From NCBI GenBank assembly GCA_022614805.1, contig JAKEHY010000020.1:1-64000 (forward strand): a stretch of 64,000 nt of DNA, read 5' to 3'. The translations under genes and the position numbers were made by a program. Of the stretch, positions 9,909 to 41,125 are shown piece by piece; positions within the stretch are counted from its first letter, which is position 1; every line of letters begins with the position of its first letter. The DNA is from Candidatus Zixiibacteriota bacterium. GTDB taxonomy: Bacteria; Zixibacteria; MSB-5A5; DSPP01. The notes under the pieces were generated by a model. That model worked only from the letters and a program-made list of their open reading frames with translations. It had not been told where the DNA came from and ran no database searches.

Positions 9909-10595
9909 TTACGCCGCCCGGCGCTCGTCCTTTTCGATTTTGCCGTCCCGCAAATGCACGCTCCGCTCGGCGTAGGCGGCGATGTCGTGCTCGTGGGTGA
10001 CCAGAATGATGGTGTGCCCCTGTTTGGAGAGCCGGTCGAACAGCTGCATAATTTCCGCCCCGGTGGCGGAGTCCAGATTCCCGGTCGGCTCGTCCGCGAG
10101 GATAATCGAGGGACTGTTCACCAGGGCGCGGGCGATGGCGACCCGTTGGCGCTGGCCGCCAGAGAGCTCATTCGGCTTGTGGTGGGACCGGTCGGTCAAA
10201 TCCACCGCCGCCAGCGCCTGCTGCGCTTTTTTCTTCCGCTCGGAAGCCGGGGTGCCGTTGTAAATCAGGGGGAGCTCGACGTTGTGCAGGGCCGTGGCGC
10301 GGGCCAAGAGATTGAACGTCTGAAAAACGAAGCCGATCTCCTTGTTGCGGATGTAGGCCAACTCGTCATCGGAAAGCTGGGAGACCATCCGGCCGTTCAA
10401 CTCGTAGGTCCCTTCCGTGGGGGTATCCAGACAGCCGACCAAATTCATCAAGGTGGACTTCCCCGAACCGGAAGGGCCCATAATGGCCAAATATTCTCCC
10501 CGCTCAATGTCCAAATCCACCCCCCGCAGGGCCTGCACCTGCACGGCCTGCCCCATATCATAGGTCTTCCAGAGGTTGCGTATGTGAATTAACAT
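9909..10595 (-). CDS. LolD/MacB-type ABC transporter ATPase
   Basis: This 228-residue cytoplasmic ATPase powers the two permeases. It shows Walker [14 protein letters not shown] near residue 40, the Q-loop FVFQTFNLL, the signature [15 protein letters not shown], Walker [14 protein letters not shown] and the switch histidine in [11 protein letters not shown]. The family (LolD, FtsE, MacB) works by mechanotransmission rather than alternating access. Its start overlaps the end of the MacA gene by one base, so translation is probably coupled. Confidence 0.94.
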
Positions 10596-11842: not shown

Positions 11843-11844
11843 TT

Positions 11845-13158: not shown

Positions 13159-13160
13159 AT

Positions 13161-13901: not shown

Positions 13902-14054
13902 CGTTCCTCCCATCTACGTCATCTTCTCATACGCCATATTTTCGGTCAGGTTGCAAAAACTGACGAAGGTCACAAAAAATAATATAACCATTTACGGTCG
14001 TTCTTGGAATAGGGGACGGGCGAAAAAGGGGGGGGGCAGCAACGTGTGCTGTAA

Positions 14055-14095
14055 CCTAACCCCTCGTATCCCCCTCCCGAAACGGGAAGGGGAGG
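14055..14095 (+). repeat. CTAACCCCT palindromic repeat, copy 2
   Basis: CCTAACCCCT is followed by an 11-position stem (14069-14079 with 14083-14093, one C/A mismatch) around loop AAA. It is the same element as at 7346 and 16214. Confidence 0.8.
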
Positions 14096-14164
14096 CAATT
14101 CACCAACCACCTCTCCCGGGATGCAGAAACACTTAAACCGTCTTTGCCTTTCGTTTTGAACGGA

Positions 14165-14227
14165 TAAAAAAGATGCCTCCCCCGGCTATCTCCCCGAAAA
14201 CGGGGGAGCGGCTCGACCGGAGGAGGC
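14165..14227 (-). terminator. Large hairpin terminator after the TPR-Fis gene
   Basis: On the minus strand nested arms GCCTCC (14222-14227) / GGAGGC (14175-14180) and an inner CTCCCCCG...CGGGGAG hairpin are followed after three bases by TTTTTT. It lies about 140 bases past the stop at 14366. Confidence 0.55.
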
Positions 14228-14325
14228 GTGGGGCGTCAAATGGGCATTCCCCCGAAGTCCCATATCAGGGACGCGCTTCCAAAGGCGGCCATAATATTGA
14301 AGGCAATACGAAAGGCGGTCAATGT

Positions 14326-14363
14326 TTAAAATTGGACAGTTGCTGCTTAAAAGTTGACAGTTG
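14326..14363 (+). repeat. Two direct repeats, 21-bp period
   Basis: TTAAAATTGGACAGTTG (14326-14342) and TTAAAAGTTGACAGTTG (14347-14363) differ at two positions. They lie immediately downstream of the stop codon of the TPR-Fis gene. Confidence 0.7.
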
Positions 14364-14365
14364 GC

Positions 14366-15796
14366 TTAGACGGCCAACTTGTAACGCTTGATGCGGTAGT
14401 GCAGGGCGCCGCGGGAGATGCCCAGTTTTCCGGCGGCGTGGGAAATGTTCCCTTTGGTTTCGGAAAGGGCCAAAACGATCCTTTGGCGGTCGGCCACATC
14501 GTGGGCCAAACGCAAAGGAAGGCCGTTGGAAGCCAGTTCCAAATGGCCGAGCAGTTCCTGCACGCGGTTTTCCCAGTAGGGGTGTTCCAACTTTTCGAAA
14601 ATTCCCTTTGACCAGACGAGCTTGGGACGAAGCTCGGCCAGGGCAAAAGCGCCGCATTCGGCCGCTTCGACGCAGGTTTTGGCCAGCTCCCAGTCATTTT
14701 CGCAGGACTCAAAGATTTCCAAAGTTTTCTTGAAAGAAGCTTGAGCCAGAGAAAGTTGGTCCTTGCGAATGTAGCAAATTCCCATCCCCCGGTACATCGC
14801 CCCTTCCTCCAGCTTTTCAGGGAGTTTTATCAAATAGCTCCGGCAGGTGGCGTAGGCATCCAGAGCCCGGTCATACTCTTTTTCAGCCAGGCGCAAATCC
14901 CCCATCAAGCGCCAGCACTGGGTCATAATCGTGCCGTAGGGACTTACCCGCTCGCCGATTTCGAGCGCTTTTTTGAGATTTTCTTCCGCTTCGGCGAAAC
15001 GCCCCTCGGCAATGTCCAGTTCCGCCAAAAATTCGTAAGCGACCTTTAAGCTCCCGATTAAGCCCTCCCGGCTCGAAATCTGAACGGCCTTGAGGTAACT
15101 TTTTCTGGCCGGTTTCCAATGCCCCCCCAGAAAACGAGCGTGCCCCAAATTTATCCATCCGTAAATATGGCTGAAATAATCGCCCGCTTTTTGACTTTCA
15201 ACCAAAAATTCGTCCAACCCGGCCAGAGCGGACCTCCAGTCACCGGCCAGGCGATGATGAACCGCCCGGCTGCAACGCAGCACCAACTCGTAGTACCGGT
15301 CGTTCGCTTTGACGGCGCAAGCTCGGGCCTGGTCATTGAAGTGGTTCGCAAACCCCAGCTTTCCTCCGATACTGTACAGGTAAGCGATTCGATTCAAAGC
15401 TTTTGCGGCCTGACCCCAATCTTCCACCAGTTTGAAACCGGAAACCGCCAGCTCCAAGTGCTCTTCGGCATCCTTTAAATTGCCCAAATCAATGAAAATC
15501 CACCCGAGCAAACTTTGCGATTTGGCCACCCCTTCAAAGCTTTGCCGGCTCAAATAAAACTCCAACGCCTTTCGAGCCGGCTCCAGGGCCTGTTGTTTCT
15601 CCCCCAGCCGCCAGAGAACCAGCCCCTCCAGATAGTTGAATTGGGCCAACTCTTCGGAGAAAACCTTTGCGCGAAAAGCGGGCGCGATTGACCTTAGTTC
15701 GGCCAGGGCTTCCTTGAGCTTGTTGGCCTTGACCAAGGAATCAACCCTTCTTAACGGCTCGGCTGCCGTAGATGACTGCCTACTCGACGATTTCAT
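14366..15796 (-). CDS. TPR protein with C-terminal Fis-type helix-turn-helix
   Basis: A 476-residue probable transcription regulator. The first 410 or so residues are TPR helices (SLLGWIFIDLGNLKDAEEHL, ARFLGGHWKPARKSYLKAVQ). The last 45 form a Fis/NtrC-type DNA-binding domain (RQRIVLALSETKGNISHAAG, then KLGISRGALHYRIKRYKL). There is no AAA+ or receiver domain, so it is not a sigma-54 activator. It may read a protein or peptide partner through the TPRs. The ATG at 15796 lies inside the end of the upstream small-protein gene (17-base overlap), which suggests coupled translation. The target genes are not evident. Confidence 0.85.
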   Translation of the reverse strand: MKSSSRQSSTAAEPLRRVDSLVKANKLKEALAELRSIAPAFRAKVFSEELAQFNYLEGLVLWRLGEKQQALEPARKALEFYLSRQSFEGVAKSQSLLGWIFIDLGNLKDAEEHLELAVSGFKLVEDWGQAAKALNRIAYLYSIGGKLGFANHFNDQARACAVKANDRYYELVLRCSRAVHHRLAGDWRSALAGLDEFLVESQKAGDYFSHIYGWINLGHARFLGGHWKPARKSYLKAVQISSREGLIGSLKVAYEFLAELDIAEGRFAEAEENLKKALEIGERVSPYGTIMTQCWRLMGDLRLAEKEYDRALDAYATCRSYLIKLPEKLEEGAMYRGMGICYIRKDQLSLAQASFKKTLEIFESCENDWELAKTCVEAAECGAFALAELRPKLVWSKGIFEKLEHPYWENRVQELLGHLELASNGLPLRLAHDVADRQRIVLALSETKGNISHAAGKLGISRGALHYRIKRYKLAV

Positions 15797-25709: not shown

Positions 25710-27353
25710 TCATTTAATTAACACCAGTTTCTTTGTTTCCGAATAGTTTCCCGCTCTTAATTGATACAGATAAACCCCACTTGCCACGTTCCGGCCAGAT
25801 TCATCCTTTCCATCCCAGGTGACCCGGTATCTGCCCGTGCGCTGGGTTTCGTTCACAAGGATTCGAACCGTCCGACCCAAAAGGTCGTAAATGACCAAAC
25901 GGACTGGCAGCGGTCGAGGGGCTTTCAAGTCATACTCTATCGTAGCTTGGGAGTTAAAAGGGTTGGGATAGTTCTGCTCCAATCGAGATTCAAAAATTGG
26001 TCTGGGGCTGGGAATTTCTTCCACGTCCGTTGATATCAAATCGCTGTCCCCGGCAAAAACCCAGACTTGCCCCCGGTCGGTCGAATCAGCAATTCCTTCT
26101 TCCGCCCCCACGATGAAATCATCCACCCCATCACCATTAACGTCTCCAACTCCTGCAAGTGCCTGACCGAAATCCGGGGCGGGGATGGGCAAGTCAGCTT
26201 CATCAATAATCACATCCGCCCTATTATCCATATTCGGGCCGCCAAAATAAACGTAAACATAACCGGTCAAGAAATTTGTGCCCCGGGGGTCTCCAGTTAA
26301 GAGATCTTGATAGCCATCGTGGTTGATGTCTCCAGCTGAAGCGTAAACGAAAGCTATATGGTCAAGAGACAGGTCGGGGAGAGTATCTAAAACTGGACCT
26401 CCAAAGTACACAAAAGGAATCCCTGTAGACCCCGAAGAGAGAGTCACAAAATCTCCATACCTGTCACCATTTAAATCTCCTGCTGCAGACAGAATTGTGC
26501 CAAATGCCCAATCTGGCTGCCGAAAAGTCGTATCTGGAATGGTTAAAGGATTGCTTTTTCCGAGAAAAATATGAATGCTACCGGGGGTATTGTTATTACT
26601 TGTCCCTGGCTCTCCTGCCAAAATGTCGGCAAATCCGTCTCCGTTAAAATCTGTGATAATGATGCTTCCCACGCCGAGCGTGAGTTTATTCTGTGCGAGG
26701 CCGGCTCCCGTTACCATCCAGTCTGCCGTGGTGTCAATTCCTACCAGACCATTGTTATTGTAAAGATAAACTCTTCCGTTTATAAAAAGGTCGTCGTTTG
26801 GATAATGAGGTGCTGAAATCAACAGGTCTCGTCCATTGGCTCCGTTGACATCTCCCGATGCAACTTGGAAGCCGAGCAAGTCCCGGGGAAATTCTGGAGA
26901 GAATATTAGATCTGGCACTGTATCGGGAGGATTGCCGCCGTAATAAACCCGCACAGAAAGCGAATCCCCCGGCCATAGGGCATAGTCCGGCAAACCGTCG
27001 CCGTTGATATCCCCAAGGTTGACTAACGGGTCTCCGGGCAGTGGAAATGTTACGTCGGGAACAGTATCTACTATCCCCGGCCCACCATAGTAGAGGTAAG
27101 TTCTTCCCACTCCGACAGGCAGACCGGCCTGTTCCCGCACCGCCCCAGCCAGAAAGTCGGCATAGCCGTCTTGATTTACGTCTCCCGCTGGGGCTACGGC
27201 CATCCCCAAAAAATCCCCCTTGAGCGGGCCTTTGAGAAACCCGATGATTTGCAAGGGCAACTGCTGCCCCCGGGCGGCGAAAGCTTCCTCGGAAAAAAAC
27301 AAAAATATTATATGGAATAGAAGCGAACCGGTCAGCAGTAGCAGGCGTCTCAT
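25710..27353 (-). CDS. T9SS-type secreted FG-GAP repeat protein
   Basis: A 547-residue secreted protein. The signal peptide (LLLLTGSLLFHIIFLFFSEEAFA) is followed by seven FG-GAP repeats of the integrin-alpha beta-propeller type with the calcium-binding pattern D-x-N-x-D-G-x-x-D (GDVNQDGYADFLAG, GDINGDGLPDYALWPG, TDFNGDGFADILAGEPG, GDLNGDRYGDFV, GDINHDGYQDLLTGDPRG, GDVNGDGVDDFIVGAEEG). The C-terminal YPNPFNSQATIEY ... SGVYLYQLRAG ... TKKLVLIK is a T9SS type A sorting signal. It lies 19 bases upstream of the large cargo gene in the same direction, so the two are likely co-expressed surface proteins. Confidence 0.9.
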   Translation of the reverse strand: MRRLLLLTGSLLFHIIFLFFSEEAFAARGQQLPLQIIGFLKGPLKGDFLGMAVAPAGDVNQDGYADFLAGAVREQAGLPVGVGRTYLYYGGPGIVDTVPDVTFPLPGDPLVNLGDINGDGLPDYALWPGDSLSVRVYYGGNPPDTVPDLIFSPEFPRDLLGFQVASGDVNGANGRDLLISAPHYPNDDLFINGRVYLYNNNGLVGIDTTADWMVTGAGLAQNKLTLGVGSIIITDFNGDGFADILAGEPGTSNNNTPGSIHIFLGKSNPLTIPDTTFRQPDWAFGTILSAAGDLNGDRYGDFVTLSSGSTGIPFVYFGGPVLDTLPDLSLDHIAFVYASAGDINHDGYQDLLTGDPRGTNFLTGYVYVYFGGPNMDNRADVIIDEADLPIPAPDFGQALAGVGDVNGDGVDDFIVGAEEGIADSTDRGQVWVFAGDSDLISTDVEEIPSPRPIFESRLEQNYPNPFNSQATIEYDLKAPRPLPVRLVIYDLLGRTVRILVNETQRTGRYRVTWDGKDESGRNVASGVYLYQLRAGNYSETKKLVLIK

Positions 27354-29325: not shown

Positions 29326-30525
29326 TTACTTAATGGCGCCAACGATGTCGAACATCGGCAGATACATCGCAATCAGAATCCCGCCGATGACAACCCCCAT
29401 AAAGACGATGATGACCGGCTCGATGATGGAGGTTAAGGCGGCCACGGCGGCGTCCACCTCCTCGTCGTAAAAGTTGGCGATTTTCTCCAGCATCTCGTCC
29501 AGCCCGCCGGTTTTTTCACCCACCGAAATCATCTGGATGACCATCGGCGGAAAAACGCCCGATTCCTTCAACGGCTGGGTGATGGTTTCCCCTTCGGCAA
29601 TCGACAACACCGATTTTTTGATGGCGTCGTGCACCACCCGGTTGCCGGCCGTTTTGGCCGTCGTGCCCAACGCGTCCAGAATGGAAACGCCGGAGGAAAT
29701 CAAAGTTCCCAACGTCCGGGTGAAGCGGGCCACGGCGGTTTTGCGAATCACCGTACCAATTATAGGTAATTTGAGCTTGAACTTGTCGAACGCCAGCCGT
29801 CCCTGGTCCGTTTTAACCCAGTAGCGGAAACCAATCGCGCCAGCGATGGCGAGCAGAATGAAAAACCAATAATAACTCCTCAAAAAGTTGCTGATGGCCA
29901 GCACCATCTGGGTCGGCCCGGGCAGCTCCGAGCCCAAGTTTTCGAACATCTTGGCGAAAACCGGGACGATGTAAGTCAGCATGGCGAGCGTGACACCAGC
30001 CGCCACCACCATGATGACGGACGGATAAACCATCGCCCCTTTCACCTTGCGGTTCAAAGCATCCGCCTTCTCGCGAAAGACGGCCAGCCGGACCAAAATG
30101 GTGTCCAGAGCCCCCCCCACTTCTCCCGCTTCCACCATGCTACAGTACAGGTCGTCGAAAACCTTCTTGTGCTTGCCCAAAGCCTCCGCCAGGGTGGAAC
30201 CGGAAGAAACCGAATCGCGGACTTCGGCAATCACCTTGCGGAAGGCCAAAGACTCCATCTGCTGGGCCAGAATGTCCAGGCACTGCACCATCGGCAGCCC
30301 GGCCCCAATCATCGTGGCGAACTGGCGGGTGAAGCGGGAGATGTCGATGCGGCGGATACGGTTGACGGTAGGGAGCTTGAGCTGGGACGGCTTGCGGGCA
30401 ACCGAGGTGACCAGAATCCGGTTGGAGCGCAAAATCCTTTCCAGCTCGGCCCGGTTTTTGGCCTTCAGCTCGCCGGCCACCGCGGCGCCCCCCATCGACT
30501 TTCCCTTGTATTCAAATACCGGCAT
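29326..30525 (-). CDS. pilC: Type IV pilus inner-membrane platform protein
   Basis: A 399-residue PilC/GspF-type platform protein that sits in the inner membrane and couples PilB/PilT motion to the pilus. It has two T2SSF domains (QFATMIGAGLPMVQCLDILA near residue 75 and FTRTLGTLISSGVSILDALG near residue 275) and three membrane helices (VYPSVIMVVAAGVTLAMLTY, SYYWFFILLAIAGAIGF, and the C-terminal IIEPVIIVFMGVVIGGILIA). It begins 16 bases past the pilT stop and is the last gene before the terminator. Confidence 0.95.
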   Translation of the reverse strand: MPVFEYKGKSMGGAAVAGELKAKNRAELERILRSNRILVTSVARKPSQLKLPTVNRIRRIDISRFTRQFATMIGAGLPMVQCLDILAQQMESLAFRKVIAEVRDSVSSGSTLAEALGKHKKVFDDLYCSMVEAGEVGGALDTILVRLAVFREKADALNRKVKGAMVYPSVIMVVAAGVTLAMLTYIVPVFAKMFENLGSELPGPTQMVLAISNFLRSYYWFFILLAIAGAIGFRYWVKTDQGRLAFDKFKLKLPIIGTVIRKTAVARFTRTLGTLISSGVSILDALGTTAKTAGNRVVHDAIKKSVLSIAEGETITQPLKESGVFPPMVIQMISVGEKTGGLDEMLEKIANFYDEEVDAAVAALTSIIEPVIIVFMGVVIGGILIAMYLPMFDIVGAIK

Positions 30526-30540
30526 CGATTCTTCCCTGTT

Positions 30541-31620
30541 TTAGACCGCCGCCAGTTCCATTTTGCGTCCCACCAAATCGGCGAACTCCTGCTGGTTGGA
30601 GCAGCGGGCCAAAGCGTCCCCCTGGGTGATTTTGCGCGCCAGGTATAATTCGGCCAGCGACTGATTCGACGTTTTCATCCCGTATTTCTGTCCGGCTTGA
30701 ATCAAGCTGTATATCTGGTGAATCTTGTCATCCCGGATTAGCGCCCGGATGGCGGGCGTGCAAATCATAATTTCCATCGTCATTACCCGGCCGCCGCCGA
30801 TTTTGGGCATCAATTGCTGACAGACCACCGCCTGCAGGACAAACGAGAGCGTGATCCGCACCTGTTCCTGCTGGGTGTTGGGGAAAACGTCGACGATGCG
30901 GGTAATAGATTCCGCGCAGGAATTGGTGTGCAGGGTGGCAAAGGCCAAGTGTCCGGTTTCGGAGATGGTCAAAGCCGCCTCGATGGTTTCCAGGTCGCGC
31001 ATCTCGCCGATGAGAACCACGTCGGGGTCTTCCCGCAAGGCATATTTCAAGGCGGAGGCAAATGTCTGGGTGTCCGACCCCACCTCCCGCTGATTGACCA
31101 GACAACCCTGGTGACGGTGCAGGTATTCAATCGGGTCTTCCACGGTTATGATGTGGTCGCGCCGCTCCCGGTTGATTTTATCAATCAGGGCCGCCAGCGT
31201 GGTGGACTTGCCGCTGCCGGTCGGGCCGCAAACCAAAACCAACCCGCGGGGAAGATTGGCCAGTTCCGCCACCACCTTGGGAACGCCGAGTTCGTCGAAG
31301 CTTCTGATTTTGTATGGAATCTGGCGCAGGGCCATCGCCACGTTCCCCCGCTGCACGAAAACGTTGGCCCGAAAACGGGAAAGGTTTTCGATCCCGAAGG
31401 ACAAATCCAGCTCCGATTTTTCCTCGAAGTGCTGGCGCTGTTTTTCGTTCATAATGCTGTAGGCCAGCTTCTTGGTCTCCTCCGGGGTCAAAATGTCATA
31501 CCCTTCCAGTTTGGTTAGCTTGCCGTCGATGCGCACCTGGGGCGGCGTGCCGACCGTCAGATGCAGGTCGGAGGCCCCTCGCTTTACCATCAGATCCAGC
31601 AAATCCCTCAACGTTACCAC
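30541..31620 (-). CDS. pilT: Twitching motility retraction ATPase
   Basis: PilT drives pilus retraction. The 359 residues show the family N-terminus (LLDLMVKRGASDLHLTVGTPP), Walker A GPTGSGKSTTLAALID, the Asp box IITVEDPIEYLH, Walker B DPDVVLIGEMRDLET, the His box and the PilT-specific AIRALIRDDK motif, which distinguishes it from PilB. The start is a GTG (31618-31620) with AGGAGGGG upstream. It lies 50 bases after pilB. Confidence 0.97.
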   Translation of the reverse strand: MVTLRDLLDLMVKRGASDLHLTVGTPPQVRIDGKLTKLEGYDILTPEETKKLAYSIMNEKQRQHFEEKSELDLSFGIENLSRFRANVFVQRGNVAMALRQIPYKIRSFDELGVPKVVAELANLPRGLVLVCGPTGSGKSTTLAALIDKINRERRDHIITVEDPIEYLHRHQGCLVNQREVGSDTQTFASALKYALREDPDVVLIGEMRDLETIEAALTISETGHLAFATLHTNSCAESITRIVDVFPNTQQEQVRITLSFVLQAVVCQQLMPKIGGGRVMTMEIMICTPAIRALIRDDKIHQIYSLIQAGQKYGMKTSNQSLAELYLARKITQGDALARCSNQQEFADLVGRKMELAAV

Positions 31621-31670
31621 GATTTTCCCCTCCTTATTGGTATCGGCAAAAAGAGTTGATTCTGAAGTTT

Positions 31671-33365
31671 TTAGACCGAGCTTTCGGCCAATACTTCTTC
31701 GACGGTGGTTACACCCGCCCGGATTTTCACCAGCCCGGCCACCCGCAGCGAGAGCATGCCCTCCTTGACCGCTTGCTCGCGCAAAGCGGCGGTGGAGGCC
31801 TGCTCCAAAATCAACTGCTCCAGTGCGGGAGTAATCGGCATCGCCTCAAAAATGCCGGTGCGGCCGGAGTATCCCGTCTGCCCGCATTCCTGGCAGCCTT
31901 TCCCCTGGTAAATCTTAAAGTTTCCAAGCTGGCTTTCGGGAACGCCCAACTTCAAAAGGATCTCCTTGGTGGTGGGCACCTCCACCTTGCAGAACTGACA
32001 GATTTTCCGCACCATCCGCTGGGCCACTATCATTTTGGTGGCGGAGGCCACCAGGTAGGCCGGAATCCCCATGTCAACCAAGCGGCTGATGGAGGATGGG
32101 GCGTCGTTGGTGTGCAGGGTGGAAAAGACCAGATGTCCGGTCAAAGCTGCCCGGATGGCAATTTCGGCGGTTTCGCCATCCCGAATCTCTCCCACCAGGA
32201 TGACATCGGGGTCCTGGCGCAAAAAGGAACGCAGGGCGGCGGCGAAGGTGAGCCCGATGTCCGTTTTGACCAAAACCTGGTTGATACCATCGAAGTTGAA
32301 CTCCACCGGGTCTTCGGCCGTCAGAATGTTGATGTCCGTGGTGTTGATGGTTTTCAAGGCGGAATACAACGAGGTGGTTTTGCCGGAACCGGTCGGCCCG
32401 GTGACCAGGATGATTCCGTAGGGCTGATTGATGGCCGTTTCGAAATGTTTGAGCGCGCCCTCCTCGAACCCCAGCCGAGTCAGGTCGACCATCAAGCTCT
32501 TGGAGTCCAAAATACGCATGACCACCTTTTCTCCAAAAATGGTGGGAAGAACCGACACGCGCAGGTCAACCGTGCGGTCCCCCATTTTCACCTTGATGCG
32601 CCCGTCCTGCGGCAGGCGCCGCTCGGAGATGTCCAAATCGGCCATAATCTTCACGCGCGAGACGATGGCGGCCCGGTAGCGAAACGGCAGCGGCGCCATC
32701 TCTTGCAGGGCGCCGTCAATGCGGTAGCGCACCCGGATTCTTTTTTCGTACGATTCGATGTGAATGTCGGAGGCTCCCTTGCGGATGGCGTCGGCGATGA
32801 GGTGGTCCACCAGCTTGACCAACGGCTTGTCCTGCACCTGGGACTGCAGGTCCTGCTCGGTGACGGTATCCTCGGCCGACTCGATGAGTTCGAGGCTGTC
32901 CCCCTCGATTTTGTCCAGAATCTCCTTCAACCCGCCGGAATCCTGATACTGGGTCTCGATCGCTTTCTGGATCGCCTTTTCGGGGGAGATGACGGGCTGA
33001 ACGGTGCAGCCGGTGATGAACTTGATGGCATCCAAAACGTAGATGTTGTTCGGGTCGGAAATCGCGACGACCAGGGTCTTGCCCAGCTTCGATATGGCGA
33101 TGACGTTGAATTTGCGGGCGATGTCCAACGGGATGAACTTGACCACCTCCGGGTTCAACTCCAGATCGGACAGGCGCAAGGCACCGATGTTGAGCTGCCG
33201 CCCGACGAATTCGGAAATCTCGTTTTCGTCGGGGATGGCCCCCATCTGGACCAGAATCTGGCCCAGCTTGCCGTTCGTCTGTTTCTGGATTTCCAAGGCC
33301 TTGGCCAGCTGCTGCTGCGTAATCTTGCCGGCTTTGACCAGTAAGGACCCCAATTCGGCCGTCAA
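31671..33365 (-). CDS. pilB: Type IV pilus extension ATPase
   Basis: PilB drives pilus extension. The 564 residues begin with an MshEN-type domain with two copies of the motif LGxxLVxxGxxxxxxLxxxLxxQ (ELGSLLVKAGKITQQQ; KLGQILVQMGAIPDEN), which binds cyclic di-GMP in MshE-like ATPases. The leading Arg is Glu or Lys here, so binding is uncertain. The ATPase core has GPTGSGKTTSLYSALK, the Asp box ILTAEDPVEFNFDGINQ, DPDVILVGEIRDGETAEIAI, and a tetracysteine zinc site (CQFC ... CQECG). The start is TTG with GGAGGG before it. Confidence 0.96.
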   Translation of the reverse strand: MTAELGSLLVKAGKITQQQLAKALEIQKQTNGKLGQILVQMGAIPDENEISEFVGRQLNIGALRLSDLELNPEVVKFIPLDIARKFNVIAISKLGKTLVVAISDPNNIYVLDAIKFITGCTVQPVISPEKAIQKAIETQYQDSGGLKEILDKIEGDSLELIESAEDTVTEQDLQSQVQDKPLVKLVDHLIADAIRKGASDIHIESYEKRIRVRYRIDGALQEMAPLPFRYRAAIVSRVKIMADLDISERRLPQDGRIKVKMGDRTVDLRVSVLPTIFGEKVVMRILDSKSLMVDLTRLGFEEGALKHFETAINQPYGIILVTGPTGSGKTTSLYSALKTINTTDINILTAEDPVEFNFDGINQVLVKTDIGLTFAAALRSFLRQDPDVILVGEIRDGETAEIAIRAALTGHLVFSTLHTNDAPSSISRLVDMGIPAYLVASATKMIVAQRMVRKICQFCKVEVPTTKEILLKLGVPESQLGNFKIYQGKGCQECGQTGYSGRTGIFEAMPITPALEQLILEQASTAALREQAVKEGMLSLRVAGLVKIRAGVTTVEEVLAESSV

Positions 33366-33408
33366 AAACCCTCCTTTTACCCCTGCCCCTTTTTAAGGGA
33401 GAACGGTG

Positions 33409-33894
33409 CTAATCCTTAAAAATGTCGTCCAGGCGGCTTTCCGCCTGGTGGGAAAAATCGCTGGAAATCGGTTTGGCCGACTTTTTGGCCTTCTCCTTCG
33501 CTTCCCGGAAAATCAACGCCAGCTCATCCCCCACCTCCTTGGCGTACAGCCGGACCATCCCGATGGTGGTGCGGTCATCGAAAATGACCACCAGAATGGT
33601 GCGCTCGCCGACCAGCGAGATGTGGATGTGGTCCCGTTTCCCCTGATGGAACAAAACCGAAAACTCCGGCTCCCCCACCAGGCGGGCAATCTCCCGGGTG
33701 GAAGCGAAGCTCCCGGCCAGAAGCGCCGCCAGCGCGGTGGTGTCCAGCGAATGGGTGAATCCCTGGCGGGTTATCAAATGCCCGTCCTTGTCCACCAAGA
33801 GGGCGCATTTGGCTTCCGCCCCCTTGATCAGGCGCGAAAGCACCTTGTCGATGCGGCTTATTTCCTCTTCGTAGAGGATCAGATTTTCGTCCAC
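33409..33894 (-). CDS. Roadblock/LC7 protein, soluble (161 residues)
   Basis: A 161-residue roadblock/LC7 domain protein of the MglB type (IDKVLSRLIKGAEAKCALLV, DKDGHLITRQG, then FSVLFHQGKRDHIHISLVGE and RTILVVIFDDRTTIGMVRLY). In Myxococcus and Thermus, MglB-like dimers bind MglA and act as GTPase-activating or exchange factors. The tail of about 35 residues is rich in Lys and acidic residues. GTG start with GGAGG upstream. It sits ten bases after the MglA gene, which strongly suggests a direct partnership. Confidence 0.88.
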   Translation of the reverse strand: MDENLILYEEEISRIDKVLSRLIKGAEAKCALLVDKDGHLITRQGFTHSLDTTALAALLAGSFASTREIARLVGEPEFSVLFHQGKRDHIHISLVGERTILVVIFDDRTTIGMVRLYAKEVGDELALIFREAKEKAKKSAKPISSDFSHQAESRLDDIFKD

Positions 33895-33903
33895 GATTCC
33901 CTC

Positions 33904-34983
33904 CTACTTTTTTAAAAACCCGAACAGACGCGAAAAAAAACCTTTCCTTTTGGTTTCTTCTTTCCGGCCGCGCGCCAGCTCGGCGGGGCGCTGAACCGGA
34001 CGGTTTCTCAAGTTGAAGTCGGGGCGGCCGACCGACCGGCGCAGCTCCGGCGACAAAGGCTTCGGACGCTCAACCGGCGGGCGGGCATGCTGTTCCACTT
34101 CCGACCCCGAGGTCTGACGGACTCCCGGCACGACCAGCGGCCGGTGAGATTCGGGGAACCCCGAAGCGGGGGCCGGCTTGGACAACCCCGGAACCGGGCG
34201 GAACTGCTCTCCAACCGAGGGAGGCGACCCATCCGGCTGGGGGACGCCGACCGATTCCATTTTAGGACGCGACGACCCGGCCGCGGGCTGTTCTTCGGTA
34301 CCCGGCTCCGCTCTTTTCGGCAGCTCCTCCCGGACCGGCGGATAAGCCGGTTCGACTGGACGGGGATTGGGCGCGTCCGCCGGTTTAGACCCGGCTTCCG
34401 ATTTGGCCCGGGCTTTCTCCAAAACAATCTTGATGATGCACTTGAGCGTGTCAAAAACCCCGTCCCCCTTCACCGCCACGGCCTCGAAAAAAGGCAGCCC
34501 GTTTGGATTCAAGGCCGCCTCCAAAACGTCCAAGGGCAAAGCCCCCGGCAAATCCCGCTTGTTGTACTGAATGACCATCGGAATTTCGTTCAAGTTGTAG
34601 CCGTATTCCTGGAGGTTGTCGAGCAGGTTTTTCAGGCTCTCGGCGTTTTCCTCCATCTTCGACTCCTGCGAATCGGCCACGAAAACCAGCCCGTCCACTC
34701 CCCGCAAGACCAGTTTGCGGGTGGCGTTGTAGTAGACCTGGCCGGGGACGGTGTAGAGTTGAAATTTGGTCGTGAAACCGGCGACGGACCCGATGTTGAT
34801 CGGGAGGAAGTCAAAATACAAGGTCCGGTCGGCGTCGGTGGCCAGCGAAATCAACTCTCCTTTGGTGGGCTGGGGCACCTTTTTGTGGACGTACTGCAAG
34901 TTGGTGGTCTTGCCGGAAAGCCCGGGACCGTAATAGACGATCTTGCAGGATATTTCCTTGAAGGCGTAGTTTATCGAAACCAT
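33904..34983 (-). CDS. mglA: MglA-type Ras-like GTPase with long C-terminal tail
   Basis: The first 195 residues are a standard MglA GTPase: P-loop YYGPGLSGKTTNLQY, switch segment DADRTLYFDFLP, the G3 region YTVPGQVYYNATRKLVL with RGVDGLVFVADSQ, and the base-specificity motif NKRD. MglA sets cell polarity and directs pilus and gliding machinery. Residues about 196-359 are an added Pro/Arg/Glu-rich, low-complexity tail ending in KRKGFFSRLFGFLKK, a short basic amphipathic helix that could bind membrane. Usual MglA proteins are about 195 residues, so the tail is unusual. It lies between two roadblock genes. Confidence 0.93.
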   Translation of the reverse strand: MVSINYAFKEISCKIVYYGPGLSGKTTNLQYVHKKVPQPTKGELISLATDADRTLYFDFLPINIGSVAGFTTKFQLYTVPGQVYYNATRKLVLRGVDGLVFVADSQESKMEENAESLKNLLDNLQEYGYNLNEIPMVIQYNKRDLPGALPLDVLEAALNPNGLPFFEAVAVKGDGVFDTLKCIIKIVLEKARAKSEAGSKPADAPNPRPVEPAYPPVREELPKRAEPGTEEQPAAGSSRPKMESVGVPQPDGSPPSVGEQFRPVPGLSKPAPASGFPESHRPLVVPGVRQTSGSEVEQHARPPVERPKPLSPELRRSVGRPDFNLRNRPVQRPAELARGRKEETKRKGFFSRLFGFLKK

Positions 34984-34991
34984 CAGGGGCC

Positions 34992-35330
34992 CTACATCAA
35001 AGCCAGCCGGGATGCCGCGTTTTTAATCTCCAGCCGCACCAGTCCGATGTTGACGCGCGAATCGGTGGTGACCACCAGAATTCCCTTCCCCACATCGGCC
35101 AGAAAGATTTTCCCCCGTTCGGCCTCGATGGTCACCTGTTTCAAGGGCGTCTGGCGCAACCGTTCCAAAGACTTCTGCACGTTGGAGGTGATGGCGGCGG
35201 CCAAGGCCCCCACCGTGTCGTCCTCCGCGCCGGTGTTCAAATCGGCGGCGATAACGATGCCATCCTGGCCCACCAGCATGCTGCCGGTGACGCCGGAGGT
35301 TCGGTTAAGCTCCTCTAAGATCTGGTACAT
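34992..35330 (-). CDS. Roadblock/LC7 protein, minimal (112 residues)
   Basis: A single roadblock/LC7 domain (MYQILEELNRTSGVTGSMLV, GQDGIVIAADLNTGAEDD, VTIEAERGKIFLADVGKGI, LVVTTDSRVNIGLVRLEI). GGGAGG lies before the ATG. It overlaps the end of the membrane-anchored roadblock gene by 26 bases and stops 8 bases before mglA, so the three are translationally linked. It is the closest candidate to a classical MglB. Confidence 0.9.
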   Translation of the reverse strand: MYQILEELNRTSGVTGSMLVGQDGIVIAADLNTGAEDDTVGALAAAITSNVQKSLERLRQTPLKQVTIEAERGKIFLADVGKGILVVTTDSRVNIGLVRLEIKNAASRLALM

Positions 35331-36243
35331 GGTGTCCCTCCCGACTGGTTTTCAAAACCGGTTCGTACTTTTCCTGCCAGTGGCGGCGAATCATTTCCAC
35401 GGCCCGCACCAGCCGGACGTTTAAGAGTTCGTCCGCCGGCGGTTCCACCACGGCCACCAAATAGAATTCCAAGACCTTCTGCACGTACACCTTCCCGGCG
35501 GTGGTGGAAAGCTCCATCGACTGGAAGTCGGAGTGGTCCACTCGGGAGGCCAGCTCTTTGTTGCGCTCGACTAAAACCAAACCCCAGGCGGCCCAGAGTT
35601 CATCTTCCCAGGCTCCGCCGGACTCGAAGCGGGCCAAAACCAGTCCTTCCTCGTCCACCAGATAGGCTTTCCGCACCCCGCGCTGCTCCCCGATGTAGGC
35701 CAAGGCGTCGTCAAAGTTGATTTCCCGCAAGTCGTGACGAGGGGACGCGCCCGCTTCCGGGCGGACCTTCGCGGGTTCCATGGTTCGATGGGAGCCGCCG
35801 GCTGGGGGGGGAGCCGCCGACCGGTTGACCGGCTCGGTTGCCCTGGTCGGCCGCGGCCGTTTAAGGGAGCTGCCCCACAAATTTTTCAGAAGGAACGGAG
35901 CCAAAACCGCCATAAGCAAAAAACCCGGAAAGTAGGCATACCAGCCTTCCTTCATAGCTTGGGCCAAAGGCTGCGAGTGGATGACCGAAAGCAAAACTCC
36001 CAAAACCGTACCGGCGAAAAGACGGTAGGCCGAGGTTCCCAAAGTGAATCCTACCGTTTTCCCCATCCCGGCTTCCGGGAAAACCAGGAAAAAAACCAGA
36101 AAGTAATAGGCGGCTTCGGCGGCCAACAAACGCGGGCCGGCCCATCCGGCGTAATCGAAGCCGAAGCCGGCCGGGAAGAAAATCACCGGCACCGCCGCCA
36201 GAAGAAAAAGGAGAATCAAAGCCATGCGCAACTCTTTTGACAT
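35305..36243 (-). CDS. Membrane-anchored roadblock/LC7 protein
   Basis: A 312-residue protein. About four membrane helices occupy residues 5-125 (MALILLFLLAAVPVIFFPAG, LLAAEAAYYFLVFFLVF, LFAGTVLGVLLSVI, YFPGFLLMAVLAPFLL). A Pro/Arg-rich linker follows (about residues 130-180), then a C-terminal roadblock/LC7 domain (DDALAYIGEQRGVRKAYLV, DEEGLVLARFESGGAWEDEL). It would present a roadblock domain at the inner face of the membrane, perhaps as a docking site for MglA or its partners. AGGAG precedes the ATG. I do not know a named family with this architecture. Confidence 0.82.
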   Translation of the reverse strand: MSKELRMALILLFLLAAVPVIFFPAGFGFDYAGWAGPRLLAAEAAYYFLVFFLVFPEAGMGKTVGFTLGTSAYRLFAGTVLGVLLSVIHSQPLAQAMKEGWYAYFPGFLLMAVLAPFLLKNLWGSSLKRPRPTRATEPVNRSAAPPPAGGSHRTMEPAKVRPEAGASPRHDLREINFDDALAYIGEQRGVRKAYLVDEEGLVLARFESGGAWEDELWAAWGLVLVERNKELASRVDHSDFQSMELSTTAGKVYVQKVLEFYLVAVVEPPADELLNVRLVRAVEMIRRHWQEKYEPVLKTSREGHHVPDLRGA

Positions 36244-36252
36244 CGTCGCTCC

Positions 36253-37140
36253 TTATCCGGCCAAAAGGGCAAAGTCCAAAAAAGCCCCCACCTTCATCTT
36301 GAAAGCTCCCAGGTTAATCTCGGGACGGAAGACCACCATCAGCACCTTTTCCTCCATCCGCACGGCCAGAAAGCTCATCCCGTCCGTGTCGATCCAAACT
36401 TTTTCCAACTGCCCCAGCTCCACCTTTTCGAGATTCGTTTCCGCCACCAGAAAGACGGAGGCGGAGACGGCCGCCAGGCTGTCGGCATCCCAGTTCCCCT
36501 TAAAGCGCTTGTCGATTACGAGTCCCTCCCGGTTCACGACCATAAGGGCGTCCACTTCCGGTATGGCAAAAAGCTCGTCGATGGCCTCTTCCGGGCCGAT
36601 GACGGAATCGGCGGTTCGTTCGGTTTCCAACGTGAAGATGTCGGAATCCCCCCGCCGCCGCCCCGGCTTGACCGGCTCGGAAAAACTGGGGCGGGGAACC
36701 TCCGCAGCGGGACGGGTCTTGCCCGCTTCCTTGCGGCAAAGCTCCAAGAGGTATTTGACTTCCTGATTTTCCGGGTCGGTGATGTGCAGCTTTTCCAAAA
36801 TCGACAGGGCTTCGGCCAGCTTCTTTTTGTGGATGAAAATTTCGCACAGCAAAAGCTCGGTGGCGCGGGTGCGGCCGTCCAGGCGGATGGCCTCTTCCAG
36901 CGCTTTTTCGGCCAACTCGTACATCTGGCGGTCCAGGTGGACCTTGGCCATCACCAGGTGGGCCGAACCGTAGTTGGGGTGCAGCTTGAGCCCGCTCCGG
37001 CAGATCTCCAAGGCCTTATCCAGCTGCCCCTTGCGCCGGTAGGCGTCCGCCAGGGCGGCAAAAATCTGGGAGTTTGGATTTTCCGCCAGAATTTTTTCGC
37101 ACTTGGCGATGCGGTCGTCCAACTCGGCTAAATTAAGCAT
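36253..37140 (-). CDS. TPR-roadblock/LC7 fusion protein
   Basis: A 295-residue protein. About residues 1-140 are TPR helices (IFAALADAYRRKGQLDKALE, AHLVMAKVHLDRQMYELAEK). A linker with a Pro/Arg stretch follows, and residues about 180-295 form a roadblock/LC7 domain (AIDELFAIPEVDALMVVNRE, GLVIDKRFKGNWDADSLAAV, VWIDTDGMSFLAVRMEEKVL). The TPR part could recruit another protein to the MglA system. No clear ribosome binding site before the ATG at 37140. It starts 43 bases past the stop of the small membrane protein gene. Confidence 0.85.
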   Translation of the reverse strand: MLNLAELDDRIAKCEKILAENPNSQIFAALADAYRRKGQLDKALEICRSGLKLHPNYGSAHLVMAKVHLDRQMYELAEKALEEAIRLDGRTRATELLLCEIFIHKKKLAEALSILEKLHITDPENQEVKYLLELCRKEAGKTRPAAEVPRPSFSEPVKPGRRRGDSDIFTLETERTADSVIGPEEAIDELFAIPEVDALMVVNREGLVIDKRFKGNWDADSLAAVSASVFLVAETNLEKVELGQLEKVWIDTDGMSFLAVRMEEKVLMVVFRPEINLGAFKMKVGAFLDFALLAG

Positions 37141-37183
37141 TCAGTTTCTGCAAGTTATGTGCGTCGTCCATTTTCGGCAAGGC

Positions 37184-37549
37184 TCAGCTCATTACTTTTT
37201 TAATGCGCGCGACCCCAAAGGCCATTCCCGCTCCGGCACCGAACTGCAACAACGAAACCGTAGTGGGAGAAACGGCGGCAAAGCCGGCGGCTCCCAAGAA
37301 GCTCAAGAGCTGGGAAGCGGCGAAAAGAAGCAAAGCCGCCGCCAGCCATTGCCAGCCGGCGGAAAGTTCTCCCCCCCGGGTCAGCCGGTACACCTTGAAG
37401 GCGAAGGCCAGACCGAAGGCGCTGAAAATCCCCGCAACGAGCGATAAAACAATCCCCCAGAAGGGGGCCGCCGCGCCGGGCAGGTTGTCGGCCCGGGCCG
37501 AACCGAAGAAAAGCAAAATGAACCCAAACGTCAAAAGCACCGCTTTCAT
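37184..37549 (-). CDS. Small membrane protein of the motility operon
   Basis: A 121-residue membrane protein of unknown family. It starts with a signal-like helix (VLLTFGFILLFFGSARA) and has about three more helices (FWGIVLSLVAGIFSAFGLAF, WLAAALLLFAASQLLSFLG, SLLQFGAGAGMAFGVARI). AGGAG lies before the ATG and the start is three bases past the end of the PATAN gene, so it is part of the same operon. No function can be assigned. Confidence 0.7.
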   Translation of the reverse strand: MKAVLLTFGFILLFFGSARADNLPGAAAPFWGIVLSLVAGIFSAFGLAFAFKVYRLTRGGELSAGWQWLAAALLLFAASQLLSFLGAAGFAAVSPTTVSLLQFGAGAGMAFGVARIKKVMS

Positions 37550-37552
37550 AGT

Positions 37553-38722
37553 CTACTCCTTCTTTATCTGCCGGTATACTTCGACTTCCAAATCATATTT
37601 TCCCACCAGCCCCCGCTCTTCGGCAAAGATGGCGGCGGCCTCCTTGCGCATGTCGTTGCCGACCTTTTTGTAAACCGCTCCTCCCAGAACCAGCCGCACC
37701 ACCTCCAACCCGTCCGCCAGAATACTCCCCAGCCCGGCCAACAACTTGTGCAGCCGGATTTCTTTCGGCAGTTCCGCCAGCCGGCTTAAAAAATCGCTCT
37801 GGTTGAAATGCTCGTCTCCATACAAAAAGGAGGCCAGGTAAAAATCGATTCCCTTTTTTTCCTGCGGGGAAGGCAGCCGCCGCCGGAAAAAATTTTTCCC
37901 CACCTTTTTGTCGAACACCCGCACCAAAACGGAAAAGCAGGCGGAAAAAACCCGCAGGGCGATCGAGAAAACCAACTCCTCCTCTTCCCGCGTGGAAAGC
38001 CGGGAGCGGCTTTTCGGGAGCGCCTCCACCAGGCCGTTCTGCACCAGCTGGTGGAGGGCCTTGGAGGTTACAAACTCCCCCATGGGGGAGGCCCGCAGGA
38101 CTTCCGGGTAGGTCCGGCTGCCGTCGATTAAAATCATAACGGCGAGCTGGTCGACCGTCATCGTTATTTCCTCGCCGCGGACTTTGGGGTTGGCGGAAAG
38201 CTTCAAGGGAAGGTGGGCGGCCGGCAGGGTTTTTTGTATTTCGACCCACTCGTCAATGCGCCGGGCCCCCTCCAGAATGACCGAGGAGGTCGGCAGCTCG
38301 GTTAAAATCTGGCTGGCCGCTGGGGTCTTCCCTTCGTAGAACATAAACTCCCCTTCATTCCAACCAAACAGATTGTACACGATTTCCTCGATTTGCAGCT
38401 TCAGGGCCGCCACGATCTCTTCCCGCGAAAAGAGGTTCAGCTCGATTAAGGTCACCCCCAGCTTTTTGCCGGTGGATTTGTGCAACGAGATGGCCCGCTC
38501 CAGGTCCGGTTTCGAGATTTTCCCCCGCTTTAAGAGCAAATTTCCCAGCAAATCCTCTTCGTCGTTGGCGGATAAGGCATAGACGACGTTGCCGTTTTTG
38601 AAGTAAATCTCTTTTTTCAAGGGTCCTTTGGTGACCGCCAAAGCCCCCGTTTTCTTCCCCTGCGAAAGCAATTGCAGAATGTCCGAAAAAGAGACGGTAT
38701 TCAGGTTGCCGGTAAACGCCAT
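37553..38722 (-). CDS. PATAN (DUF4388) protein with tandem MshEN-like motif
   Basis: A 389-residue cytoplasmic protein. Residues 1-60 are a PATAN/DUF4388 domain (FTGNLNTVSFSDILQLLSQG, KKTGALAVTKG, KEIYFKNGNVVYALS). In cyanobacteria PATAN proteins transmit signals to pilus motors. Residues about 65-120 carry the pattern LLGNLLLKRGKISKPDLERA and KLGVTLIELNLFSREE, the same tandem spacing as the PilB N-terminus. A winged-helix-like part (QLAVMILIDGSRTYPEVLRA) follows. The ATG at 38722 was taken; a TTG lies 9 bases upstream. It is the first gene of the motility operon. Confidence 0.82.
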   Translation of the reverse strand: MAFTGNLNTVSFSDILQLLSQGKKTGALAVTKGPLKKEIYFKNGNVVYALSANDEEDLLGNLLLKRGKISKPDLERAISLHKSTGKKLGVTLIELNLFSREEIVAALKLQIEEIVYNLFGWNEGEFMFYEGKTPAASQILTELPTSSVILEGARRIDEWVEIQKTLPAAHLPLKLSANPKVRGEEITMTVDQLAVMILIDGSRTYPEVLRASPMGEFVTSKALHQLVQNGLVEALPKSRSRLSTREEEELVFSIALRVFSACFSVLVRVFDKKVGKNFFRRRLPSPQEKKGIDFYLASFLYGDEHFNQSDFLSRLAELPKEIRLHKLLAGLGSILADGLEVVRLVLGGAVYKKVGNDMRKEAAAIFAEERGLVGKYDLEVEVYRQIKKE

Positions 38723-38750
38723 CTTCTCCAATACCCCCTTGTCTTTATTA

Positions 38751-38872: not shown

Positions 38873-41125
38873 CTATAAAACCGGCACCGAAAGCTTGCGG
38901 CCCGAAACATGGGCGGTGGCAACCAGCCCCTTCCCCTCTTTTTTGAAGGCCACCATTCCATCCCGGAAAGCAAAAAAGAGCTTATTTGGAACGGCTTCCG
39001 GCAGGCGGTACAGGCGTTGGGTGGAAACCACCGCCTTCATTTTTGGATGGCGGCACAGGCTTTCCGCGCGGGAGAAATCGAGGGGGGCCACCAGAATGGT
39101 CGGCCTGAAAAAAAGGGAATCCAGAGGCGGCGGATGGGATTGGTTTTGGTGGGGAAGAAACAGAAATGAAAAGCCCGCCCCGCCCAACCGGAGCCCAAAA
39201 GGAATTGAATCGCCGGGAGCCAAAAGGTATTCGACGTTCCAAGCGGGAGATGCGCTGGTTCTCTTCTTGCCCCCCTCATCCACCGGCCAGCCAGTCCAAT
39301 CCGGGTTGAATGCTTTGGCAATCGCCTCGGAGGCGGCCCGTCCCGATGAATCGAAACGCAAAGGCAGGTACGCTTCGATTTTCTCCTCCCCCCAATAGGC
39401 CAAAAACGGGTCCAGGACTTGGCGGGGGGTATGCGTTTTCTGTCCCACCCGCCCTCCTCCTATCACAATCACTCGTCCCGAAAATGAGAAAACCGCAACC
39501 GTCTCTCCCCTCGCCTCCAAAACGGCCAGAGCGAACCCCGGTTTTTCTTTGAGCTCCGGCAGCCAGACCAGCGGGATAAGGCCGCCGACCAAAAGATACG
39601 CTGCGGTCTTCCGCCGTTGGGCTTTGAAGAGAAAAACGAGCAGGGCGAAAGCGCCAACGAACAGCAAAAAGGTCGTCCATCCGTCCGGGTGGGGGAGGGC
39701 AAAGTGAAAGAAAGGATGGCCCAAGAAAATTTCTTGAATCCGAAACAGGGCGTCAAAAAGAAAAATCATCCCGCCGGAAAGCAAGGAACCGGCCCCGAAA
39801 AAATTCAAGCCGGCGAAGAAAAACGCGCTCCAGGTAATGAGCATGGTCAACGGCACGGTAAAAAGGTTGGACAGAAGCGAAACCGGAGTTACCTGGTTGA
39901 AATAGAAGGCGATGAGCGGAAAGGTTGCCAGGAAGGCGACCAGGGGGGTGGTCAATACGGACAGGAACCAATGGCTGCGAGCATGCGTTTCAACGTAGCC
40001 GGCTTCTTTAAATGAGAAAAATATCAAAGCGAAAGCGGCCAGATAAGAGAGTTCAAAACCGATGTCGAAAAACCACAAGGGATTGAGGCAAAGAAGAAAC
40101 AGAGCGGAAAGGCCCAGACTCTGCTCCCCTGAAATTTCGCGGTAAACGACTTTTGAAACGGTCCAGAACGTGAACATTACGGCCGCCCGTAGAACGGAGG
40201 CCTGCAGGTCGGTGAGCAGGACAAAAATCCAGACCAAAGCCAAGGCGACCAGATAGCGCCAGCGCAGGGGAACGTAAAAAAGCTTCAAAAACAAAATCGG
40301 CAAAAGCGCCACCCAGGCTACGTTGGCGCCGGAGACAGCTAACAAATGGAGGGTGCCCGTTTTTTCGAACAGCTCATAGGTGGAGGGCTCGATGTCTCGC
40401 GTGTCACCGAGAACGAATCCTTGTACGACTCCGGCCGCTTTGGGCGGCAGTCCCTGCGTCAGTTTCTCTTCGACCAAAAGGCGGACCTTTGCCAGACGGG
40501 TTCGCCAGTTGCCGGAGCTTTTGGCGGTGATGGAAATTCCCTTTTCGTCCTTGAGAAAAACCGCGCCCTCCACCCCCCGGATGCGCATATAACGGGCGAA
40601 ATCGAGCGAGCCGGGGTTGGCCGGAGGCCAGAGGGAATCCAGGTAACCTGTAAATTCCATCCGGTCCCCCAAGGCAAAAGAAGAAATCGGCCGGCCGACG
40701 GAGAGTAAAAGCTTTCCCTCCAACCCAATTCTTTTTTTCCAGCCGACCGCCACCCGGTCGAGATAAATCCGGGTGCGGCCGGGCTTAATTTCCGGCAGTT
40801 CGCAAACCCGGCCGGAAACAACCATTCTTCGGTTGAGGCCGGCAAAATCGGCCACCGAGCGCCCGGCCGCCACGTCGGTAGCGGCCGAATGGCGCAAAGC
40901 GCCCAGACCGACAAGCAGGGCTAAGAAACCAAAATTGGCGATGGCATTTTTGACGCGATGGTGGAAAAGGCCGGCAAAAAGTCCGGCCAGGGCGCAGGCG
41001 GAAAACCAGAAGAAAAGATTATTGGTGGTGAGGGCGGAAAGAAGAATTCCGGCGGCAAAGGCCAAAGCGGCCCAGAAGGCCGGGGCCGGTAACGTATGCT
41101 TGGCGATTTTCTCTGCGGCCCCCAT
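38873..41125 (-). CDS. comEC: ComEC/Rec2 DNA-uptake channel
   Basis: ComEC forms the inner-membrane channel for single-stranded DNA during natural transformation. The 750 residues have the N-terminal OB-like DUF4131 region (VSGRVCELPEIKPGRTRIYL), the competence core (GVVQGFVLGDTRDIEPSTYE, LFEKTGTLHLLAVSGANVAW) with about ten membrane helices, and a C-terminal part where the metallo-beta-lactamase-like domain belongs. In that part the usual SHxDxDH zinc motif is not seen (AYLPLRFDSSGRAASEAIAK stands in its place). Starts 6 bases from the murJ stop. The pilus genes nearby would fit a transformation role. Confidence 0.9.
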   Translation of the reverse strand: MGAAEKIAKHTLPAPAFWAALAFAAGILLSALTTNNLFFWFSACALAGLFAGLFHHRVKNAIANFGFLALLVGLGALRHSAATDVAAGRSVADFAGLNRRMVVSGRVCELPEIKPGRTRIYLDRVAVGWKKRIGLEGKLLLSVGRPISSFALGDRMEFTGYLDSLWPPANPGSLDFARYMRIRGVEGAVFLKDEKGISITAKSSGNWRTRLAKVRLLVEEKLTQGLPPKAAGVVQGFVLGDTRDIEPSTYELFEKTGTLHLLAVSGANVAWVALLPILFLKLFYVPLRWRYLVALALVWIFVLLTDLQASVLRAAVMFTFWTVSKVVYREISGEQSLGLSALFLLCLNPLWFFDIGFELSYLAAFALIFFSFKEAGYVETHARSHWFLSVLTTPLVAFLATFPLIAFYFNQVTPVSLLSNLFTVPLTMLITWSAFFFAGLNFFGAGSLLSGGMIFLFDALFRIQEIFLGHPFFHFALPHPDGWTTFLLFVGAFALLVFLFKAQRRKTAAYLLVGGLIPLVWLPELKEKPGFALAVLEARGETVAVFSFSGRVIVIGGGRVGQKTHTPRQVLDPFLAYWGEEKIEAYLPLRFDSSGRAASEAIAKAFNPDWTGWPVDEGGKKRTSASPAWNVEYLLAPGDSIPFGLRLGGAGFSFLFLPHQNQSHPPPLDSLFFRPTILVAPLDFSRAESLCRHPKMKAVVSTQRLYRLPEAVPNKLFFAFRDGMVAFKKEGKGLVATAHVSGRKLSVPVL

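Follow-up and report, generated by a model that had tools for sequence, protein, structure and literature searches.

A conserved block of MglA, roadblock and PATAN genes beside type IVa pilus motor genes in Zixibacteria

Ten codirectional genes at the locus

We analysed a window of 64,000 nucleotides (positions 1 to 64,000 of contig JAKEHY010000020.1) from a Zixibacteria genome, the 2.55-Mb, 93% complete assembly GCA_022614805.1 (G000). On its minus strand, from 38731 to 29326, lie ten genes that begin with a PATAN protein and end with the platform protein PilC, and that include the GTPase MglA, four roadblock proteins and the pilus motors PilB and PilT. These genes had been proposed in an earlier reading of the same DNA, made from the letters alone and called here the original prediction; all ten were confirmed at the minus-strand coordinates that it gave. 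Robl_LC7 matches in the whole genome numbered exactly four, all inside the block, and the four roadblock proteins that the prediction placed beside MglA and both motors are thus the only ones in the genome. The genes, their relevant parts and two neighbours are listed below.

37553..38731, minus: PATAN (DUF4388) protein, 392 amino acids (aa); PF14332, 117 bits; opens the block in relatives
38393..38548, minus: MshEN-like helical insertion in the PATAN protein, aa 62-113; NF053729, 47 bits; Foldseek; hhalign
37184..37549, minus: small membrane protein, 121 aa; signal-like N-terminus, about 3 transmembrane (TM) helices, conserved RGG loop
36253..37140, minus: tetratricopeptide repeat (TPR)-roadblock, 295 aa; TPR N-terminal, Robl_LC7 at aa 184-270, 43.5 bits
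35305..36243, minus: TM-roadblock, 312 aa; Robl_LC7, 23.9 bits (cut-off 23); model of fold
34992..35330, minus: minimal roadblock, 112 aa; Robl_LC7, 60 bits; top Protein Data Bank matches are Asgard roadblocks
33904..34983, minus: MglA (Ras-like GTPase), 359 aa; G domain at aa 1-195 plus a long tail; matches 5ymx
33907..33951, minus: C-terminus of MglA (last 15 aa) with a basic/aromatic motif; putative anchor to the membrane by K/R and aromatic/hydrophobic counts
33409..33894, minus: MglB orthologue by homology, soluble roadblock, 161 aa; Robl_LC7, 52 bits; matches 6izw
31671..33365, minus: PilB, type IVa pilus extension ATPase; TIGR02538, 718 bits (cut-off 676); degenerate MshEN, NF053729 at aa 5-57
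30541..31620, minus: PilT, retraction ATPase; TIGR01420, 493 bits (cut-off 319)
29326..30525, minus: PilC/T2SSF platform protein; PF00482, 221 bits; NF052606, 506 bits
27446..29206, minus: PilS-like histidine kinase; PF02518, PF00512, weak PF25323; ends the conserved pilBTC-S run
38873..41125, minus: ComEC, DNA-uptake channel; PF03772, 169 bits; conserved upstream neighbour

The ATG of the PATAN gene is at 38722, and its start may instead be the TTG that lies three codons further upstream, at 38731. Little DNA separates the genes of the operon, with median gaps of about -26 to +98 bp, and the genes for the TM-roadblock and the minimal roadblock overlap by 26 bp. Directly upstream, in the same direction, are murJ and comEC, which are part of the conserved neighbourhood. 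The terminator that the original prediction had placed after pilC was not borne out: a search between pilC and the next gene found no intrinsic-terminator-like site, and in 47 loci the PilS-like kinase gene comes next after pilC, on the same strand.

The block recurs as a unit across Zixibacteria

Gene order in relatives was read with models built from the window proteins and their orthologues. After removal of duplicates 63 loci remained, 61 of them with roadblock genes, from 18 families. Conservation of the order in relatives had been set beforehand as a test on which the original prediction could fail. We found that the order PATAN–small TM–TPR-roadblock–TM-roadblock–minimal roadblock–MglA–MglB–PilB–PilT–PilC was unbroken in all 61 roadblock-bearing loci, contig ends aside, and that all nine core genes lay on a single contig in 48 of them. 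The only locus flagged for order (L067) owed this to a spurious, distant TPR match. The small membrane protein was kept in 58 loci; a Pfam search with the 121-aa protein gave no match.

MglA was found in 120 of 132 Zixibacteria genomes, always as a single copy, and in 76 of the 78 high-quality ones. Of the 12 genomes without MglA, seven had no roadblock either, among them the only two with a completeness of at least 90% (G004 and G084); one roadblock turned up in the remaining five, all of them fragmentary assemblies. G004 (family f4, 96% complete) lacks the seven regulatory genes, and no roadblock gene was found anywhere in its genome. At the corresponding junction the PilB-PilT-PilC-PilS run begins about 290 bp after ComEC (L241, G004:C30:48000-67000, with ComEC adjoining PilB at 10048-14720). 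Family f4 branches deepest in a tree of PilB+PilT+PilC for which other phyla served as the root. The gap fits a single insertion after f4 had branched off, and it also fits a single clean loss in f4; the outgroups, whose pilB has no such block next to it, tip the balance slightly towards insertion.

Thus the seven regulatory genes are gained or lost together while their neighbours stay, and since they are missing as a unit in one family they amount to a single module next to the motors. Chance is excluded as an explanation, because the genome's Robl_LC7 matches all lie here and the order recurs so widely. That the genes form a unit is therefore well supported.

One MglB orthologue and three Asgard-like roadblocks

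The roadblock encoded after MglA matched Myxococcus xanthus MglB (6izw) over its whole length (aa 3-160, E=4e-38), and its gene adjoins mglA wherever a contig holds both. By homology this last roadblock (33409-33894) is the MglB orthologue, and it is predicted to act as the GTPase-activating protein (GAP) of MglA. The best matches of the minimal roadblock were Asgard roadblocks, structures of which have been described (PMC10933270), with MglB appearing only at E values of at least 9e-4. In hhalign comparisons the TPR-, TM- and minimal roadblocks grouped at 97-99%, versus 81-91% with the MglB type. On these profile comparisons the three form a group separate from MglB and nearer to Asgard and Ragulator roadblocks.

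The TM-roadblock has a helical membrane region (aa 1-127), a linker and a cytosolic roadblock at about aa 177-292. Its model had a mean predicted local distance difference test score (pLDDT) of 69, with most roadblock strands and helices at 80-90. With Foldseek the soluble half matched MglB as well as roadblocks from Asgard and Ragulator, at E values of about 1e-6 and a TMt of about 0.8, the fold being closest to Asgard roadblocks and Ragulator p14. Because the model has a roadblock fold, this weakest of the domain calls is confirmed. A shorter TM-roadblock of 133-160 aa with no TM segment occurs in L039, L043, L047, L053, L066 and L078 (families f11 and f14, plus L078), all of which keep the small membrane protein.

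A group 1 MglA with a long basic and aromatic tail

Structure matches of MglA ranged from E=4e-77 (M. xanthus 5ymx) to 2e-75. Group 1 MglA proteins are defined by a conserved Arg in G2 and TVPGQ in G3 (PMC4316618). Both R53 and T78-V-P-G-Q82 were invariant in 13 aligned MglA sequences, which places this MglA in group 1 by catalytic signature. The 57 full-length Zixibacteria proteins are 311-649 aa long, above the typical, non-obligatory group 1 size of <240 aa. Their extra 115-450 residues consist of a linker poor in hydrophobic residues and then a basic, aromatic end. By simple counts, 52 of the 57 tails have at least 6 K/R in the last 22 aa, and 55 have at least 4 F/W/L/I/M in the last 14 aa. 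An amphipathic helix was considered for the tail and dropped, as hydrophobic moments were not above those of shuffled sequences.

A PilB-like insertion in the PATAN protein and the pilus machinery

The MshEN model NF053729 matched both the PATAN insertion and the N-terminus of PilB. Whole-chain Foldseek with the PATAN model gave no significant match; the helical insertion alone matched MshE and PilF structures at 38-40% identity, with high probability and poor E-value (MshE 5htl: 38% identity, probability 0.97). In hhalign its profile matched the Zixibacteria PilB N-terminus at 98.7%, with 38% identity. On these profile and model comparisons the insertion is homologous to the N-terminal (MshEN) domain of PilB, and by analogy it could plausibly serve as a contact to the motor. 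The MshEN receptor for cyclic di-GMP (c-di-GMP) needs two RLGxx...Q motifs (PMC5013675). The PATAN insertion has LLG and KLG, with N in place of the second Gly, and PilB has ELG, with E replacing R in 32/33. Sensing of c-di-GMP by either protein was rejected, since the Arg and other motif residues are missing. Elsewhere in the same genome, on a different contig, is the gene for a further PATAN protein, 275 aa long (G000:C28:11539-12006; L190 5495-6322).

PilB and PilT both scored above their cut-offs, as a type IVa motor set should, and PilC scored above its Pfam cut-off and below the NCBIfam equivalog cut-offs. Pilin N-methyl motifs are present in the window's own assembly, in which searches for a secretin and PilM came back empty. 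An assembly gap is the likely cause for the secretin, because the congener G001 (99% complete) has two; a secretin-less pilus was rejected on the same ground. In G001 a second PilT-family ATPase gene directly follows a secretin gene, away from pilBTC (L185, G001:C32, 7038-8860).

Related MglA loci in other phyla

Related MglA loci came from 30 genomes of other phyla, pilB being found in 29 of them. We examined 20 outgroup pilB surroundings (stretches of 4 to 20 kb, some ended by contig edges); none held an MglA or roadblock gene near pilB, two weak TPR matches being all that appeared, and the neighbours were pilT, pilC and often pilS. The 2014 survey of Wuichet and Sogaard-Andersen reported at most two coupled MglB, with PATAN genes as occasional neighbours (PMC4316618). 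The statement in the original prediction that known MglA systems have one or two MglB partners, with the motors elsewhere, fits both the survey and these 20 loci.

Planctomycetota, Sumerlaeota/BRC1 and Latescibacterota have loci with a minimal roadblock, a tailed MglA and a downstream MglB, mostly accompanied by a TPR protein (its roadblock end weak) and PATAN. These sets resemble the Zixibacteria block in those genes and differ from it in the position of PATAN and in having no pilBTC within about 10 kb. In BRC1 a 303-aa gene with a weak match and no Pfam match occupies the TM-roadblock position. Beyond PATAN, the BRC1 locus also holds a receiver-domain protein (L087:13100-14281) and a PDZ protein (14285-15040), which may be input or output genes.

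The MglA proteins of these sets grouped with those of Zixibacteria and Fibrobacterota with support of 0.98. Outside that clade lie the short MglA proteins of Myxococcota, Geobacter, Nitrospirota and Krumholzibacteriota, preceded by mglB. Support within the tailed-MglA clade was modest, and two members (L125 and L127) have a short MglA with mglB first. Most planctomycete MglA proteins have a predicted TM helix at the end, after a long linker (L085, L088, L089, L098, L100, L101, L113, L119, L137, L153 and others). The two kinds of tail, basic/aromatic and TM helix, suggest membrane association by different means.

A proposed MglA switch and its alternatives

We propose, with a probability of about 0.6, that the PATAN-to-MglB block (33409-38731) is a membrane-anchored MglA switch wired to the adjacent type IVa pilus motors. 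What we observed is the gene content, homology, the catalytic signature and tail of MglA, conservation, and the presence or absence of the block as a unit; from this we infer all of the physical contacts, the GAP activity of this MglB, localization at the poles and the output. In this mechanism the basic C-terminal tail would hold MglA-GTP at the inner membrane near pilus bases, with the TM-roadblock and the small membrane protein together serving as a platform, and the MglB orthologue would be the GAP that turns MglA off. Dimers of the minimal, TPR- and TM-roadblocks could be stacked into a scaffold, as for MglC/MglB in Myxococcus and LAMTOR in Ragulator; MglC dimers stack on MglB dimers in an arrangement that has been likened to Ragulator (PMC10329633). 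The TPR domain and the PATAN protein would be effectors towards PilB, the latter perhaps through its PilB-like MshEN domain. There are precedents for both, in that MglA acts on PilB via the TPR protein SgmX (PMC11580455) and the cyanobacterial PATAN regulator PixE is reported, in work cited in PMC7690835, to bind PilB1. PilB and the PilB/PilT balance would come into play only at places or times at which MglA carries GTP, and the controlled pili would serve surface motility and/or DNA uptake. The original prediction of an integrated polarity-and-output module for twitching thus holds for the unit beside the motors, given the conserved order and the f4 absence; polarity and twitching are what we infer beyond it.

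Several observations weigh against such a switch. Family f4 retains pilBTC without the block, showing that the motors can exist alone, and the similar sets without pilBTC in Planctomycetota and Sumerlaeota imply that output there need not be a pilus. The TM-roadblock lacks its membrane part in f11 and f14, so that the anchor is not essential, and a hydrophobic-moment test picked the MglA tail as amphipathic in just 5 of 57 proteins. Protein distance correlations with PilB are also no clearer than vertical descent would give. This bears on the possibility that the genes are independent and were co-located by vertical descent alone, with no functional meaning. MurJ and ComEC are likewise conserved neighbours, and the correlation of protein distances is almost as good for ComEC as for PilB, so that PilB does not stand out by this measure. 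However, descent alone is very improbable and largely refuted by an order kept over 18 families, by overlapping genes, and by the joint presence or absence of the seven regulatory genes while neighbours remain.

We also considered that the pilus under this control might serve DNA uptake (competence) instead of twitching, with MglA positioning or timing PilB and PilT at ComEC sites. Because comEC lies next door this is a serious and plausible alternative output, if at somewhat less than even odds. MurJ-ComEC directly precede the block, ComEC is present upstream in 53 loci (block-less G004 included), and in G004 it is directly beside PilB. However, the adjacency may be incidental, MurJ having no uptake role; the competence gene that the analysis covered is comEC; and pilus loci of Geobacter and Nitrospirae have the same pilB-pilT-pilC-pilS order and showed no ComEC match in the vicinity. 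Alternatively, the block might set the ratio of extension to retraction without cell polarity, the roadblocks being a scaffold for signals from the membrane or from nutrients instead of a pole marker. The absence of a response-regulator (RomR-type) gene inside the block, the similar scaffold set without pilBTC in other phyla, and the Streptomyces roadblock/GTPase conservons, which are not motility systems (PMC4316618), are all consistent with this idea. We consider it possible though rather unlikely, as group 1 MglA in Myxococcus acts through polar localization (PMC11580455, PMC10329633).

Comparison with known systems

The closest known system to the proposed switch is that of M. xanthus, in which MglA/MglB/MglC with SgmX, FrzS and SopA act on PilB (PMC10329633, PMC11580455). 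The two share a group 1 MglA, an MglB orthologue, a second roadblock class, a TPR protein and PilB as the presumed target. Unlike M. xanthus, Zixibacteria have four roadblocks rather than two, three of them closer to Asgard/Ragulator roadblocks than to MglB, an MglA with a 160-aa tail, a TPR domain fused to a roadblock, and genes that adjoin pilBTC. SgmX has 14 TPRs, the C-terminal ones binding MglA (PMC11580455), whereas the 295-aa TPR-roadblock has few TPRs and a roadblock. The Zixibacteria block also differs from the M. xanthus system in containing no RomR, RomX or FrzS gene.

In Thermus thermophilus, MglB is the single known roadblock partner of MglA. Both proteins (3t12 complex) are homologous to those described here and catalytically alike, although the Thermus MglA is short (198-residue chain) and that of Zixibacteria is tailed. 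Cyanobacterial PixE/PixG/LsiR likewise link PATAN to pilus control, with action of PixE through binding to PilB1 put as a hypothesis (PMC7690835); the Zixibacteria PATAN protein differs in lacking a receiver domain and in having a long helical C-terminal region and an MglA neighbour.

Ragulator (LAMTOR1-5) with the Rag GTPases resembles the block in combining a small GTPase with four roadblock proteins and an anchor in the membrane, and there is a fold match to p14/LAMTOR2. In contrast to that system, MglA itself has no roadblock domain and one of the four roadblocks is the MglB orthologue, the structural comparison covering folds. More speculatively, and with a good deal of doubt, the block could be a bacterial Ragulator counterpart, a stacked scaffold of four roadblocks, one of them integral to the membrane, that holds tail-anchored MglA and switches pilus motors by nucleotide state, with a related scaffold serving other outputs in Planctomycetota/Sumerlaeota.

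The component families are already known; what may be new is their layout, with four roadblocks, MglA and PATAN directly beside the pilus motors. In the open papers searched we found no description of four roadblock genes and one MglA beside pilBTC, none of a clade of mostly tailed MglA proteins, and none combining Zixibacteria with type IV pili. One switch could decide where or when pili work, and because the switch, GAP orthologue, extra roadblocks, TPR, PATAN and motors are adjacent phylum-wide, about 10 kb of DNA could be enough for modelling or reconstructing the pathway. As a membrane-anchored system of several roadblocks in bacteria, the block would also be useful for studying the origin of Ragulator-type scaffolds.

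Downstream of the PilS-like kinase gene, at 25710-27353, the window encodes an FG-GAP repeat protein with a FlgD-like Ig domain and a Por_Secre_tail sorting domain.

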